Shown here: in pieces, positions 42,495-48,553 of the stretch
Layout of the letters: every line of letters starts with the position of its first letter
How positions within the stretch are numbered: position 1 is the stretch's first letter
Origin: Chitinophagaceae bacterium
GTDB taxonomy: Bacteria > Bacteroidota > Bacteroidia > Chitinophagales > Chitinophagaceae
Direction: 5' to 3'
DNA length: 52,987 bases
NCBI GenBank assembly: GCA_947451935.1
Contig: CANGBH010000012.1
Location: forward strand, 1 to 52,987
Translations under genes and position numbers: made by a program
The notes under the pieces: generated by a model
What the model saw: the letters and a program-made list of their open reading frames with translations, nothing else
What the model was told of the DNA's origin: nothing
The model's database searches: none

Positions 42495-44579
42495 ATGCAT
42501 ATTAGCGAAGACAATAGATTTTTCCAAGAAAAAGGCAAACTGTTCAGTGAAAAGGCATCAGACATTGCCTTTATCAAGGAGAATATTGAGGTCTTACGCG
42601 ATGTTATTCGATTTAACGAACGCAGATACTATGTGATGAACGACCCCTTGATTGCAGATTTTGAGTTTGACACACTATATGACTTATTAAAAAAGACTGA
42701 AGAAAGCTATCCAGCGCTTATCACTACAGATTCTCCAACACAACGAGTTGGACCAGGTTTTACAAAGCAATTTAATACAGTGCAGCATCTGGTACCAATG
42801 CTTTCCCTTGAAAATTCCTACAATGCAAGTGATTTAATTGAATGGGATAGAAAAGCACAAGAGTTGTCTGGCATGGATACCCTAAACTATTGTGTTGAGC
42901 CAAAATTTGATGGTGCGAGTATTTCAATCATTTACGAAAATGATCAATATGTACGAGGTGCAACCAGAGGAGATGGGATAGCTGGAGAAGACATCACATT
43001 AAATCTAAAGCAAATTAAATCAATCCCACTTTCCGCAGCATTCTCAACCTATGGCATACAACAGATTGAACTTCGGGGGGAAGTATTAATCAACAAAGAA
43101 AATTTTAAAAAATTCAATGAACAGCTTGCAGAGCAAAGCCTCCCTCCATTAGCCAACCCACGAAATGCGGCATCAGGATCATTACGTATGAAAGATGCTG
43201 GGATGGTGGGGAAAAGAAACCTTGAAGCGTTTATCTATCATATCGCCTATGTTCACTATGCAAATCATAAATCAGAGATTTCGTCACACTCTAAAAGCCT
43301 AGAAATGCTCTGGGAATTGGGTTTTAGAAGTCCTGTAAATGAGAAAAAGATCATCACCGGCATAGATAAAGTTATCCAATTTTGTGCTGAGTATGAAGCT
43401 CAACGAGACAATCTACCTTATGAAATTGATGGGTTAGTTATCAAAGTAAATGAGCTTGCCTTACAAGATAAATTAGGCATGACTACCCACCATCCCCGCT
43501 GGGCTATTGCATATAAATTCAAAGCAAGACAAGCAACGAGTAAACTTTTACAAGTAGAATTTCAAATTGGAAGAACGGGTTCAATCACTCCTGTAGCAAA
43601 AATTCAACCCGTGCCGATTGGAGGGGTAATGGTTGCATCCATTTCATTGCACAATGAAGACTTCATACAAGAGAAAGATATTCGAATAGGCGACACTCTC
43701 CTTGTAGAAAGAGCAGGGGATGTGATCCCATACATCGTCAAATCATTTCCTGAATTAAGGCAAGGTGATGAAATGGAAATCAACTTCCCTTCACATTGTC
43801 CGTTTTGTAGTGCAGCACTCATCAAACAACAAGAAGAAGCTGTTTGGAGATGTCCCAATTATCAATGTGCTGCGCAGGTGGTTGAACGCATGATTCATTT
43901 TACCAGCAAAGACGCCATGGATATTAGAGGGCTAGGTGATGCCAACATCAGAAAATTTCATGAATTGGGTTGGTTAAAAGACATACCATCCATGTATGAA
44001 CTTCCTTATGATAAGATGATGCAAATGGAAGGTTTTGGTGCACGTTCTGTCGAAAATTTAAAAGAGGCTATTGAAAAATCAAAATCACAACCTCTATACC
44101 GATTAATCAACGCACTTGGAATTCGCTATGTGGGTGAAACTACTGCTAAAGCACTTGCACAACAAGTGAATCACTTGCTAGACCTTCAAAAAATGAATAG
44201 AGAAGAACTCCAAAAAATTGATGACGTTGGAGTAAAGGTGGCAGAAAGTATTTATCAATTTTTCAGCACGACAGAAAATAGTGAAATGTTGAATAAGTTA
44301 GAAGCATTGGGACTTCAACTTCATAGCATAAAAAAACAAACTGCAGAGGGGACATTAAATGGGAAGAGCTTTTTATTTACTGGAAGCTTACTTAAAATGA
44401 AACGAGCTGAAGCAGAAGAATTAGTGGAAGCAAATGGAGGTAAAATATTATCTGGGGTGAGTAGCAAACTTGATTACCTTATTGTGGGTGAAGACGCGGG
44501 CTCGAAGTTAGAAAAAGCAAAAAAAATTGCATCCATTCAGATTCTTTCTGAGGATGACTTCATTCAATTAATTAAATAG
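42495..44579 (+). CDS. ligA: NAD+-dependent DNA ligase
   Basis: 694 residues. The adenylation domain has the catalytic Lys in YCVEPKFDGAS and RGDGIAGEDIT. The OB-fold is followed by a C4 zinc finger (CPFCSAAL and CPNYQCAAQ), HhH repeats (MEGFGARSVENL, IDDVGVKVAESI) and a C-terminal BRCT domain (GKSFLFTGSLLKMKRAEAEE, LDYLIVGEDAGSK). It seals nicks in replication and repair. Full-length, divergent from the NrtR-like gene and convergent with asd. Confidence 0.96.
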   Translation: MHISEDNRFFQEKGKLFSEKASDIAFIKENIEVLRDVIRFNERRYYVMNDPLIADFEFDTLYDLLKKTEESYPALITTDSPTQRVGPGFTKQFNTVQHLVPMLSLENSYNASDLIEWDRKAQELSGMDTLNYCVEPKFDGASISIIYENDQYVRGATRGDGIAGEDITLNLKQIKSIPLSAAFSTYGIQQIELRGEVLINKENFKKFNEQLAEQSLPPLANPRNAASGSLRMKDAGMVGKRNLEAFIYHIAYVHYANHKSEISSHSKSLEMLWELGFRSPVNEKKIITGIDKVIQFCAEYEAQRDNLPYEIDGLVIKVNELALQDKLGMTTHHPRWAIAYKFKARQATSKLLQVEFQIGRTGSITPVAKIQPVPIGGVMVASISLHNEDFIQEKDIRIGDTLLVERAGDVIPYIVKSFPELRQGDEMEINFPSHCPFCSAALIKQQEEAVWRCPNYQCAAQVVERMIHFTSKDAMDIRGLGDANIRKFHELGWLKDIPSMYELPYDKMMQMEGFGARSVENLKEAIEKSKSQPLYRLINALGIRYVGETTAKALAQQVNHLLDLQKMNREELQKIDDVGVKVAESIYQFFSTTENSEMLNKLEALGLQLHSIKKQTAEGTLNGKSFLFTGSLLKMKRAEAEELVEANGGKILSGVSSKLDYLIVGEDAGSKLEKAKKIASIQILSEDDFIQLIK

Positions 44580-44587
44580 AGCAAGAG

Positions 44588-44632
44588 AATTCTTTACACC
44601 ACCTTTTGCTTTATTCGGTGGTGTAAAGAATT
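44588..44632. terminator. 16-bp perfect hairpin between convergent ligA and asd
   Basis: AATTCTTTACACCACC (44588-44603) is exactly complementary to 44617-44632 around a 13-base loop. It begins 9 bases after ligA and ends 19 bases before the asd stop codon. It is probably a bidirectional terminator, although no long U-run follows. Confidence 0.6.
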
Positions 44633-44651
44633 GATATAGTAAGTTAATCGA

Positions 44652-45641
44652 TTAGATTAATCCCTTCCCTATCAAGTATTCAGCAATCTGCACGGCATTT
44701 GTTGCGGCACCTTTCCTTAGATTATCGCTCACTACCCACATGTTTAAGGTTTTAGGCTGTGTTTCATCACGACGAAGTCTACCTACAAATACTTCATCCC
44801 TTTCATGCGCATCTTTTGGCATTGGATATTGCTGAGTAGCAGGATCATCAACCAATACAACACCTGGTGAAGATGATAAAATACTCTTCACCTCATCCAA
44901 AGTAAATTCATTCTCAAATTCTATGTTAACACTTTCACTGTGACCACCCATAACAGGTATCCTCACCGTTGTTGCAGTAACACGAATAGAATCATCTCGC
45001 ATGATTTTCTTGGTTTCATTAACCATCTTCATTTCCTCTTTAGTATAACCATTTTCTAAGAATACATCAATTTGAGGAATCACATTAAGGTCGATTGGAT
45101 ATTTATATGCCATCTCTCCTTCAATGCCCTTACGCTCATTCATCAGTTGATTTACGGCCTTCACTCCAGTACCTGTAACACTTTGGTAAGTGGAAACAAC
45201 AAGGCGTTTACAACCGTACTTTATATGCAATGGATTAAGTGCCACCACCATTTGAATCGTTGAGCAATTTGGGTTGGCTATAATCTTATCATCGGCTGTT
45301 AGTTCATCAGCATTAATTTCTGGCACTACTAATTTTTTAGTAGGGTCCATCCTCCACGCTGAGGAGTTATCTATAACGGTAATTCCAGCTTTGGCAAATT
45401 CTGGAGCCCATTGCTTTGAGGTGTCGCCACCGGCTGAAAATAAAGCAACTGCAGGCTTCATTGCAATTGCATCTACCATACTAACTATCTTATATTGCTT
45501 CCCCTTAAAAGATACTTCCTTGCCTACAGACTTCTCAGAGGCAACAGGAATAAGCTCTGTAACGGGAAAATTTCTTTCTGCGAGAACTTGTAACATTTTG
45601 GTGCCTACCAAACCGGTTGCACCTACAACAGCAACTTTCAT
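44652..45641 (-). CDS. asd: Aspartate-semialdehyde dehydrogenase
   Basis: 329 residues. It reduces aspartyl phosphate to aspartate semialdehyde, the branch point to lysine/diaminopimelate, threonine, methionine and isoleucine. The NADP site VGATGLVGTKMLQVLAERNFP, active-site Cys in NPNCSTIQMV, and VPVMGGHSES-type segment VRIPVMGGHSESVNIE are present. A candidate attenuator with a lysine-rich leader ORF lies directly upstream (45674-45828). It ends convergently with ligA at a 16-bp hairpin. Confidence 0.95.
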   Translation of the reverse strand: MKVAVVGATGLVGTKMLQVLAERNFPVTELIPVASEKSVGKEVSFKGKQYKIVSMVDAIAMKPAVALFSAGGDTSKQWAPEFAKAGITVIDNSSAWRMDPTKKLVVPEINADELTADDKIIANPNCSTIQMVVALNPLHIKYGCKRLVVSTYQSVTGTGVKAVNQLMNERKGIEGEMAYKYPIDLNVIPQIDVFLENGYTKEEMKMVNETKKIMRDDSIRVTATTVRIPVMGGHSESVNIEFENEFTLDEVKSILSSSPGVVLVDDPATQQYPMPKDAHERDEVFVGRLRRDETQPKTLNMWVVSDNLRKGAATNAVQIAEYLIGKGLI

Positions 45642-45673
45642 ATTTCATTTTTTTTACCCTTGCGGGTTGTGTT

Positions 45674-45702
45674 AAAAAAAAGCCTCCCAAAACTGGAAGG
45701 CT
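45674..45702 (-). terminator. Intrinsic terminator in the asd leader
   Basis: On the minus strand AGCCTTCCA pairs with TGGGAGGCT (one A-C mismatch) around GTTT, followed by seven more T. It sits 33 bases before the asd start codon and 27 bases after the leader ORF stop. The 5' arm can instead pair with GGAAGGTT of the leader (45731-45738). Confidence 0.75.
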
Positions 45703-45728
45703 ATTACATATTTGATACACAAATTGAA

Positions 45729-45788
45729 TTAACCTTCCTTGCGGAAATGTTTTATGTTCTTCTTTGTGTGTTTTATTTCGTTCTTCAT
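45729..45788 (-). CDS. 19-aa lysine-rich leader peptide ORF upstream of asd (candidate)
   Basis: MKNEIKHTKKNIKHFRKEG, six Lys in 19 residues, with ATG 8 bases after a consensus promoter. Its 3' codons form a UUCC-GCAA-GGAA tetraloop hairpin (45735-45746) that excludes the antiterminator pairing GGAAGGUU with AGCCUUCC. The position, composition and RNA pairings fit a translational-stalling attenuator sensing lysyl-tRNA. It may alternatively be a small protein of other function, or not be translated. Confidence 0.55.
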   Translation of the reverse strand: MKNEIKHTKKNIKHFRKEG

Positions 45789-45796
45789 TGAGAAAG

Positions 45797-45828
45797 CAAA
45801 GCTAATGCTGAAAGAATTTTCTGCCAAA
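45797..45828 (-). promoter_or_regulatory. Promoter of the asd leader: TTTG, 20 bases, TAGCTTTG
   Basis: On the minus strand TTTG (45825-45828) and TAGCTTTG (45797-45804) match the -33/-7 consensus exactly with 20-base spacing. The leader ORF starts 8 bases on. Confidence 0.75.
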
Positions 45829-45846
45829 AAAAAGTTGAAACACCTT

Positions 45847-45875
45847 TTTGAGGGATTCTATTCAAAATAGTTTTG
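45847..45875 (+). promoter_or_regulatory. Promoter of the lamin-tail gene: TTTG, 17 bases, TAGTTTTG
   Basis: TTTG at 45847-45850 and TAGTTTTG at 45868-45875. The start codon is 4 bases after the -7 box, so the message would be almost leaderless. It is back to back with the asd leader promoter, with 18 bases between the two -33 elements. Confidence 0.6.
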
Positions 45876-45879
45876 ACGT

Positions 45880-47577
45880 ATGAAGAAACTCCTCCTTCTC
45901 TTTAATGTCCTTTTTATACACTACATCGTATTTGCACAGGTTGACCGATATAATGTGGTAATCAATGAGATTCTGGCAGATCCTTCCCCTGTGGTTGGGC
46001 TTCCCAATACTGAATTTGTTGAGCTTAAAAACATTTCATCTCATCCCATTAATTTACTCAAATGGAAACTAGATAATGGATCAACCAAAGCAAGCATACC
46101 TATTGATTACATATTAGCCCCCGATAGCTTAGTTGTACTCTGCTCCAAGACAAAAGCTATTTTTTTCAATTCGAACATAAAAACAATAGGACTAAGCTCC
46201 TTCCCTTCATTAGTAAATGATGGCGATATCATTACTATCCGCGATGAACATGGCAATGCCATTCATGCAGTTGAATACATCAAGAAATGGTACAATAACC
46301 CCATTAAAGCCGAAGGAGGGTGGAGCCTGGAAATGATTGACCCAACAAGGCCTTGCGACAAAAATAATTGGAGTGCCAGTGTGCATTACTCAGGTGGCAC
46401 ACCGGGTTTTGAGAATAGTATATACAACTCTCCTGGCATAGAAGAAACCATAATTGGACTACAATGCATTGCGTTAAATCCAACACAACTTATAATGCAC
46501 TTTAATCAAGGAGCCGATAGTCTTTCACTTTCACTAGCAGCAAACTATTCATTGGGCGAAGAAAATATCCATCCCAAAACAGCATTACCAATTGGACCTT
46601 TATTTAAAGATGTTGAACTCACATTCAACACAGCAATCACTGAAAATAAATTGTTTGACCTCACCATTGGTCCAATTAATCATTGCGCAAGCCTTATACA
46701 TGATACCATAAACATCAAAACAGGATTAATTAGGATTCCTGAACTCAACGAACTAATTATCAACGAAGTACTTTTTGATCCGCCAAGCGAAGGAGCTGAT
46801 TTCGTAGAGTTATACAATAACTCTTCTCATGTTATTAATGCAAAGGATATTTATTTATCCAACAAAAACGAAACAGGCGAACTAGGGAAAAGCTATGTCG
46901 CATCAAAAGAGGATTTTAATATTTTCCCAAACGACTACTTAACGATTAGTACAGATACAGCTTTCATCGTCCGTCATTGGAGAAAGACGAATACTGCTAA
47001 TCTTTTAGAAATGAAAACCATGCCTTCCTATCCAGACGACAAAGGGCAGGTAATTATTCTCACACAACAAGGAAAAATACTTGATGAGTTTGATTATTCA
47101 GACAAGCTACACTTCCCATTACTTAGAGAAAAATCAGGAGTATCACTAGAACGAATAAACCCAATGGTACCCACCTCAACATCTAGTAATTGGCATTCTG
47201 CCTCAGCCTCCAGTGGTTATGGAACACCAACAAGAAAAAATTCACAACAAGATAATGAAGACTCTACCCATAGTCCAATTCGCATACTACCCGATTATTT
47301 TAGTCCAGACAATGATGGGGTTGACGATTACCTGACTATCCAATACAATTTTTTAGTCCCTGACAACCTCATATCAGTCTATGTATTTGATCAAAACGGA
47401 GTGATGGTTACTAAAGCGATAGACAATCAACTTTGTGGAACAACTGGCAGTTTATTTTGGGATGGATTAGACAATAAAAAAAGACGGGTAAGTCCTGGGC
47501 TCTATATCATACTAGTAGAGAACATGGATTTGAAAGGAGGAAGACTAAGAATAAAAAAAGGGATAGTGGTTAACTAA
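45880..47577 (+). CDS. Lamin-tail-domain surface protein with gliding-type C-terminus
   Basis: 565 residues with a signal peptide (to about 18, IVFAQ). Two lamin-tail (LTD) domains are seen: VVINEILADPSP...TEFVELKNIS near 25-130 and LIINEVLFDPPSEGADFVELYN near 295-420. The end (about 465-565) is a CHU_C/FlgD-Ig-like module: YFSPDNDGVDDYLTI, VYVFDQNG, LFWDGLDNKKRRVSPGLYIIL. Such C-termini direct type IX-type export or anchoring in Bacteroidota; the last residues are basic/hydrophobic. It is probably surface-exposed; the ligand is unknown. Confidence 0.75.
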   Translation: MKKLLLLFNVLFIHYIVFAQVDRYNVVINEILADPSPVVGLPNTEFVELKNISSHPINLLKWKLDNGSTKASIPIDYILAPDSLVVLCSKTKAIFFNSNIKTIGLSSFPSLVNDGDIITIRDEHGNAIHAVEYIKKWYNNPIKAEGGWSLEMIDPTRPCDKNNWSASVHYSGGTPGFENSIYNSPGIEETIIGLQCIALNPTQLIMHFNQGADSLSLSLAANYSLGEENIHPKTALPIGPLFKDVELTFNTAITENKLFDLTIGPINHCASLIHDTINIKTGLIRIPELNELIINEVLFDPPSEGADFVELYNNSSHVINAKDIYLSNKNETGELGKSYVASKEDFNIFPNDYLTISTDTAFIVRHWRKTNTANLLEMKTMPSYPDDKGQVIILTQQGKILDEFDYSDKLHFPLLREKSGVSLERINPMVPTSTSSNWHSASASSGYGTPTRKNSQQDNEDSTHSPIRILPDYFSPDNDGVDDYLTIQYNFLVPDNLISVYVFDQNGVMVTKAIDNQLCGTTGSLFWDGLDNKKRRVSPGLYIILVENMDLKGGRLRIKKGIVVN

Positions 47578-47629
47578 TCCCTGTAGATATTTTCTAGAAA
47601 ACCTAACGATATCTAATTGCTTAGTTCAA

Positions 47630-48553
47630 TCAAATTAATGCAATCTCAAAGTTGACTAAATCAACAAAAGAATGAATACGATCATTGATTTCTTCTTTTG
47701 AAATTTCTTTTAGTCTTGTTGTACCAAATTTCTCTACACAAAACGACGCCATAGCAGAACCAATGATGATGGCTGATTTCATGTTTTCAAAAGAGATATC
47801 TTTTGTTTTAGCAAGATGGCCAATGAAGCCACCAGCAAAGGTATCCCCAGCACCTGTTGGATCAAATATATCTTCCAAAGGCAAGGCTGGTGCAACAAAT
47901 ACTTTATCCTCGTGGAATAAAAGGGCACCATGTTCCCCTTTTTTAATCACTACATATTTAGGACCCATCTTCATAATCTCTTTAGCTGCTTTAACCAATG
48001 AGAATTGAGCGCTGAGCTGCCTAGCTTCACTATCATTCACCAATAAAACATCTACATGCTTTAGTACTTCCTCAAGGTCGGGCATAGCCGTTTCCATCCA
48101 GAAATTCATGGTATCCATTACAACGAGCTTAGGACGGTTTCTCATTTGCTTAAGCACACTGTGCTGAATAGCAGGAACTAAATTTCCAAGCATAACAAAC
48201 TCAGCATCTTGATAACTCTCAGGAACAATTGGATTAAACTCCGCCAACACATTGAGTTGTGTATCAAGCGTATCACGCTCATTCATATCTAAGTGATACT
48301 TCCCTTTCCAAAAAAAAGACTTTTGGTCTTTCTTTATTTCTACCCCTTCAAGATCAACTCCTCTTGCGGTAAGTTCATCAAGTGTTTCCTGTGGAAAATC
48401 GCCCCCAACAATAGAGATTTGCTTAATAGGTTTTATAAAATTTGAAGCACTTATTGCAATGTATGTAGCAGCTCCCCCAATGATTCGATCGCTTTTACCA
48501 AAAGGGGTTTCAATTGCATCAAAGGCCATGGTTCCAACAACAAGAAGTGACAT
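47630..48553 (-). CDS. PfkB-family carbohydrate/nucleoside kinase
   Basis: 307 residues of the ribokinase fold. GGAATYIAIS near the N-terminus and DPTGAGDTFAGGFIGHL (catalytic Asp and anion hole) near residue 245 are diagnostic. The substrate is not evident; adenosine- and fructose-type kinases are alternatives. The frame opens 22 codons earlier, but the family start is MSLLVVGTMAFD at 48553. A consensus -7 box TATCTTTG (48574-48581, minus strand) lies 20 bases before it and inside the longer frame. Confidence 0.88.
   Translation of the reverse strand: MSLLVVGTMAFDAIETPFGKSDRIIGGAATYIAISASNFIKPIKQISIVGGDFPQETLDELTARGVDLEGVEIKKDQKSFFWKGKYHLDMNERDTLDTQLNVLAEFNPIVPESYQDAEFVMLGNLVPAIQHSVLKQMRNRPKLVVMDTMNFWMETAMPDLEEVLKHVDVLLVNDSEARQLSAQFSLVKAAKEIMKMGPKYVVIKKGEHGALLFHEDKVFVAPALPLEDIFDPTGAGDTFAGGFIGHLAKTKDISFENMKSAIIIGSAMASFCVEKFGTTRLKEISKEEINDRIHSFVDLVNFEIALI

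Follow-up and report, generated by a model that had tools for sequence, protein, structure and literature searches.

The best-known means by which bacteria control lysine synthesis are riboswitches, T-boxes and feedback inhibition. A different type of control is found in the enteric his, thr, trp, leu and phe attenuators, which have in common a short leader ORF rich in codons for the end product, an antiterminator and a terminator that exclude each other, and a leader stop codon placed at region 2. The authors of a transcriptome study on Flavobacterium psychrophilum (PMC9723704) describe strong clues that leader peptides attenuate amino-acid biosynthesis operons, so this form of control is already known in Bacteroidota. 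Here we analysed a 52,987-nt stretch of DNA from a Chitinophagaceae bacterium (the window) and describe an element upstream of asd that shares the features of the enteric attenuators. We conclude that it is very probably a ribosome-mediated transcription attenuator that couples asd to the supply of charged Lys-tRNA.

The element lies on the minus strand, as do all of its parts given below. A -33 TTTG (45825–45828) and a -7 element TAGCTTTG (45797–45804) of the Bacteroidota TAnnTTTG type, read directly in the sequence and separated by a 20-nt spacer, are followed by the near-leaderless leader ORF, MKNEIKHTKKNIKHFRKEG plus stop (45729–45788, with the ATG at 45788 and the TAA ending at 45729). 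Six of its 19 codons encode Lys, and a short Lys-enriched ORF thus sits between promoter and gene. Between the leader ORF and asd lies an intrinsic terminator, AGCCTTCCA-GTTT-TGGGAGGCT (45681–45702), with a U-run of eight (T8, 45673–45680) seen both in the sequence and in the terminator scan; it is the strongest terminator-like site within 44000–48000, and 39 bases separate the hairpin from the ATG of the controlled gene. This gene (44652–45641, ATG at 45641) encodes aspartate-semialdehyde dehydrogenase, the protein scoring 447 bits against NCBIfam NF011456 and 431 bits against TIGR01296, both above the curated cut-offs. The promoter, the Lys-rich ORF, the terminator and the identity of asd had all been called in a first-pass annotation made from the letters of the window, and each call holds. 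The gene beyond the 238-bp gap (45880–47577) is divergent from asd, and the terminator can therefore act solely on transcripts begun within the gap. On the other side of asd, a DNA ligase-like ORF (window 42495–44579, plus strand) converges on the gene, and a long inverted repeat, TTCTTTACACCACC...GGTGGTGTAAAGAA (about 44590–44630), located between the ends of the two is probably a shared terminator.

A riboswitch or T-box with lysine or tRNA-Lys as its direct ligand would also be expected ahead of a lysine-pathway gene. We find this reading hardly credible, because a search of Rfam with E values up to 10 returned no match to the lysine riboswitch, the T-box or the asd RNA, and because the element, at about 115 nt, contains a conserved ORF and lacks any large aptamer of comparable conservation. 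At the gathering score and with E up to 10, no Rfam family exceeded its threshold in the element, the best leader family being Phe_leader with 24.5 bits against a threshold of 55.

The arrangement is conserved well beyond this genome. An asd gene was identified in 56 out of the 61 relatives, and 80 named genomes yielded one too; 57 asd-upstream loci, mostly from Chitinophagaceae, combine a K-rich leader with region 2 and a terminator; the named carriers, besides MAGs, are Flavihumibacter, Niastella, Niabella, Sediminibacterium and Limnovirga. A covariance model of the element matches 193 of the 296 genomes of the family. The first-pass annotation had proposed conservation in relatives as a check, and both the ORF and the pairings 2:3 and 3:4 are kept in them. 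This genome has a single match to the element, at 101.8 bits, other matches in it being weak (E of 0.1 or more). In the other families of the order, the model gave borderline matches only, ahead of unrelated genes; these weak matches (L213–L222) look like ordinary terminators following unrelated genes and were set aside. K-rich leaders with lower model scores precede asd in four more families of the class, namely f42 (L228–L230, L233), f62 (L231, L232), f49 (L234) and f58 (L235), and their peptides share little but Lys richness (MMIKKIKCAKKLFR, MKNFKSIKQLNKPFL, MYSGMKHKEKKPAQ). The f42 matches are not fully independent of the model, as it was trained on one locus, L062, with the same leader as the f42 locus L228. 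At five loci (L053, L055, L056, L070 and L072), the terminator lies about 120–210 nt ahead of asd rather than about 40, with extra sequence between the element and the gene.

In the absence of a ribosome, the RNA of the window is predicted to fold as a long-range stem, P1, together with a small hairpin and the terminator, with a z score of -2.9 against shuffled sequences; in this fold, the stem of P1 joins 45763–45769 to 45717–45723. This score and the conservation of the arrangement, with covariation, across the family argue that the element is not a product of chance. P1, which the first-pass annotation had missed, is a stem of 7–8 bp whose arms were placed from the predicted fold, covariation and pair counts. 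Its 5' arm, CACACAAA (45763–45770), comprises His-Thr-Lys codons of the leader, and its 3' arm, UUUGUGU and the following base (45716–45723), is located directly past the leader stop; in general terms, His/Thr/Lys codons (CAYACAAA) pair with UUUGURUG just past the leader. The small hairpin 1:2, UUCC-GCAA-GGAA (45735–45746), is present in the sequence and less well conserved than P1. Region 2, GGAAGGUU (45731–45738), can pair as the 5' arm of an antiterminator with region 3, AGCCUUCC (45695–45702), which is common to the antiterminator and the terminator, whereas region 4, GGGAGGCU (45681–45688), is the 3' arm of the terminator.

RNAalifold on a MAFFT alignment displayed the terminator alone, missing P1 because its 3' arm is misaligned between clades. 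We therefore used an alignment-free partner-swap test, in which each arm is paired with its native partner or with partners from other genomes, on 48 non-redundant loci. Native partners paired better in P1 (z -9.7), in 2:3 (z -6.2) and in 3:4 (z -13.7), with control segment pairs ranging from -1.3 to +0.9. When partners were exchanged only inside three groups of loci, the z scores were -7.4, -5.9 and -10.0, respectively, and none of the 5000 permutations reached the native value. Counts on the alignment agree, with 3:4 paired in 99.1% and 2:3 in 91.6% of cells, and changes on both sides of a pair were seen for four pairs in P1, five in the terminator and four in the antiterminator. The antiterminator 2:3 and the terminator 3:4 are thus both conserved and mutually exclusive. 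The claim of exclusive 1:2, 2:3 and 3:4 pairings in the first-pass annotation stands for the latter two, including the ability of region 2 to pair with region 3; the 1:2 hairpin shows weak covariation (z -2.0 overall), not significant within clades (z -1.0), and was set aside as the protector. In its place, since P1 loops out region 2 and so competes with 2:3, the covariation supports P1 as the competitor of the antiterminator.

The leader is rich in Lys codons in its own frame specifically. In frame, 224 of 832 leader codons (27%) encode Lys, compared with 80 of 784 and 98 of 784 (10–12%) in the other frames. The best-kept Lys positions mix the two codons (22 AAG and 18 AAA at one, 20 AAA and 13 AAG at another), which indicates that the amino acid is kept rather than the base. 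At the level of sequence, these counts show selection for Lys codons in the leader. Lys codons lie within or right after the 5' arm of P1. Counted back from region 2, their frequency is 0.83 at codon 5 and 0.54 at codon 4, and it falls to 0 at codons 3 and 2, at which region 2 would begin to be covered by a stalled ribosome; the pyrimidine-rich sequence there partly forces this absence. A peptide of the KHTKRxKK type seems to be kept as a sequence, as would be expected if the leader were a nascent-chain sensor of the TnaC type, a basic peptide that stalls the ribosome on free lysine or another small molecule, in place of Lys codons that report on Lys-tRNA. This is very unlikely, given that the His and Thr residues, whose codons lie in P1, vary among loci, that both the C-terminus and the site of the stop codon are highly variable (REG, PL, S, GKV, EGV), and that distant families such as those with MMIKKIKCAKKLFR and MKNFKSIKQLNKPFL retain Lys richness only.

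To compute the effect of a ribosome on the leader, we masked the transcript from its 5' end to a point 12 or 15 bases past the start of the A-site codon and folded the remaining RNA before region 4 is made. Over the 48 loci, the mean predicted probability of 2:3 is 0.91–0.93 with the ribosome at Lys codons versus 0.00–0.02 with the ribosome at the stop codon; in these calculations, a ribosome at the regulatory codons frees the antiterminator arm and one at the stop covers it. This computed difference (0.93 versus 0.02) agrees with the first-pass annotation, which had expected a stalled ribosome to favour antitermination. In the RNA of the window, masking of the 5' part shifts the minimum-energy fold from P1 plus terminator to the antiterminator 2:3. 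Equilibrium folds of the masked full-length RNA, in which the terminator often wins even with the ribosome at a Lys codon, discriminated poorly, and the calculation that stops short of region 4 took their place; the attenuator model accordingly requires that the antiterminator be formed before region 4 is made. With no ribosome and before region 4, the probability of 2:3 has a mean of 0.64 over the 48 loci. The value for this window is 1.0, and a complete block of 2:3 by P1 is therefore not what the folds predict.

Ten genomes, all Chitinophagaceae, contain two strong matches to the covariance model, one ahead of asd and the other ahead of dapA (L185, L186, L188, L190, L192, L194, L197, L198, L201 and L202). 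All six dapA proteins tested in full exceed the curated dapA cut-off. The dapA leaders are K-rich, for example MQLIKKHTKQVKKHSMYGEG, and their P1 stems are of the same type as that of the asd element. The 48 family loci that the model fetched besides the window's own (L136–L183) precede asd or, in one case, dapA. Judged by eye, the dapA leader peptides resemble one another more than they resemble the asd leaders that accompany them in each genome, which suggests that the dapA copies go back to one old duplication. In the genome studied here, no such leader was found upstream of dapA or of the monofunctional aspartokinase gene.

DapA is the first enzyme of the lysine branch and serves lysine and diaminopimelate only, whereas asd is common to the lysine, threonine and methionine branches; the second copies therefore point to lysine, as opposed to threonine or methionine, as the signal. 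That the attenuator reads more than lysine (Thr, Asn or the general aspartate-family supply) is a thought raised by the sharing of asd among several branches and by the frequency of Thr codons, found at codon 9 before region 2 in 24 of the 48 loci. We consider it unlikely, as the main Thr codon lies in the 5' arm of P1 and several loci have lost it (KHIKK, KHNKK, KQNKR), the same type of leader precedes the lysine-only gene dapA, and thrA has T-rich leaders of its own. The dapA copies also bear on whether the terminator might simply end an independent small RNA or small-protein mRNA, with asd driven by another promoter downstream. A weak sigma-70-type match is present at 45675–45647, although the region contains no more of these than chance would give; the sequence of region 3 is under constraint from two partners, region 2 and region 4, the whole unit recurs before dapA, and the leader-less loci L012 and L019 have the same promoter directly before asd, all of which make an independent transcript highly improbable.

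The distance from the -7 element to the next ATG is 4–10 nt in 45 of the 48 asd loci with a -7 match, as the first-pass annotation implied in calling the leader ORF nearly leaderless, and a TTG lies 23 nt ahead of the -7 element in nearly all relatives in which the latter was found. Because of this short distance, the leader would start at or a few bases from the expected 5' end of the transcript. With the promoter upstream of the leader kept in nearly all relatives, a main start downstream of 45702, named in the first-pass annotation as a way to bypass the terminator, seems less likely. Very short 5' UTRs are uncommon in reported Bacteroidota transcriptomes, with 3.7% of mRNAs having a 5' UTR under 10 nt in one of them (PMC7366714) and 5.5% of mRNAs being leaderless in Flavobacterium psychrophilum (PMC9723704), and this rarity counts against the attenuator model. 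Two genomes of the same genus as the one studied here, with the loci L012 (G001:C115) and L019 (G016:C10), have neither leader nor terminator, and asd itself begins about 7 nt after the same promoter, suggesting a near-leaderless asd mRNA without attenuation.

We infer the following course of events at the asd element. RNA polymerase would start no more than a few bases upstream of the leader AUG, if not at the AUG itself; a ribosome would load near the 5' end and translate the short Lys-rich peptide. When lysine is plentiful, the ribosome would reach the stop codon, in or adjoining region 2, and cover region 2, leaving region 3 to pair with region 4 and transcription to end upstream of asd. 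Under a shortage of Lys-tRNA, the ribosome would stall on the Lys codons, breaking P1 and leaving region 2 free to pair with region 3; no terminator would then form, and asd would be transcribed. On a leader free of ribosomes, P1 would loop out region 2, and the terminator is predicted to win in the complete transcript of this genome. The lysine-responsive attenuator proposed in the first-pass annotation finds very strong support in the comparative evidence, which includes the variation between AAA and AAG, the dapA copies and the joint absence of leader and terminator from L012 and L019; a response to lysine itself would be expected from the course above.

Candidate leaders for other amino acids were found as well. 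The model weakly matches His-rich leaders with HHHH runs before hisG (L211, MKNIRHIHHHHSLLQK; L212, MFKKAHTHHHHFLFNG; L236, MKQFTHIHHHHTFP) and, upstream of thrA, a leader rich in Thr and Ile (L237, MYNSTIIITIIITTGRNLAEE), and the identities of hisG and thrA were confirmed at these four loci. In the genome studied here, a His-rich leader, MITNTHIHHHFLQTR, starting a few bases past a TAnnTTTG element, and a terminator precede hisG (L227, G000:C7, minus strand, about 2180–2080). A Thr-rich ORF, MAGLYQHITLFPLQTITVATATFTTTTR, lies directly upstream of thrA (L240, G000:C4), where no clear terminator was seen, and the ORF MNTINISNNGWHTYSSLG before trpE (L242, G000:C73) is followed, by eye, by a GC-rich hairpin and a T-run; from their sequences, both are likely to be further leader peptides. 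With His leaders at hisG, Thr leaders at thrA and MNTINISNNGWHTYSSLG at trpE, the leader codons match the pathway each time. We lean modestly toward the broader view that Bacteroidota hold overlooked near-leaderless attenuators (Lys at asd and dapA, His at hisG, Thr at thrA, Trp at trpE) with an SD-free start at or close to the 5' end and, in the Lys leaders, with codons that form P1.

If our reading is correct, the lysine element would be the first known leader-peptide attenuator that reads lysine. Its frequency in Chitinophagaceae and its recurrence before dapA would define a small, testable lysine regulon, and it points to translation start at or near the mRNA 5' end as the working basis of attenuation in the phylum. 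No lysine leader peptide or attenuator was found in the open-licence papers searched, which is weak evidence of absence. The lysine riboswitch (L-box), the Lys T-box and the Rfam asd RNA also act on lysine-pathway genes but are different RNAs that the element does not match, and in the element described here sensing would fall to the translating ribosome. The available text on Flavobacterium psychrophilum (PMC9723704) concerns the same phylum and names no lysine, asd or dapA case. What appears to be new is thus lysine as the amino acid read and a leader start unusually near the 5' end. Compared with the enteric attenuators, lysine would be read in a Bacteroidota host with asd and dapA as targets, the leader would start almost at the 5' end, and the stem P1 joins leader codons to a stretch past the leader stop.
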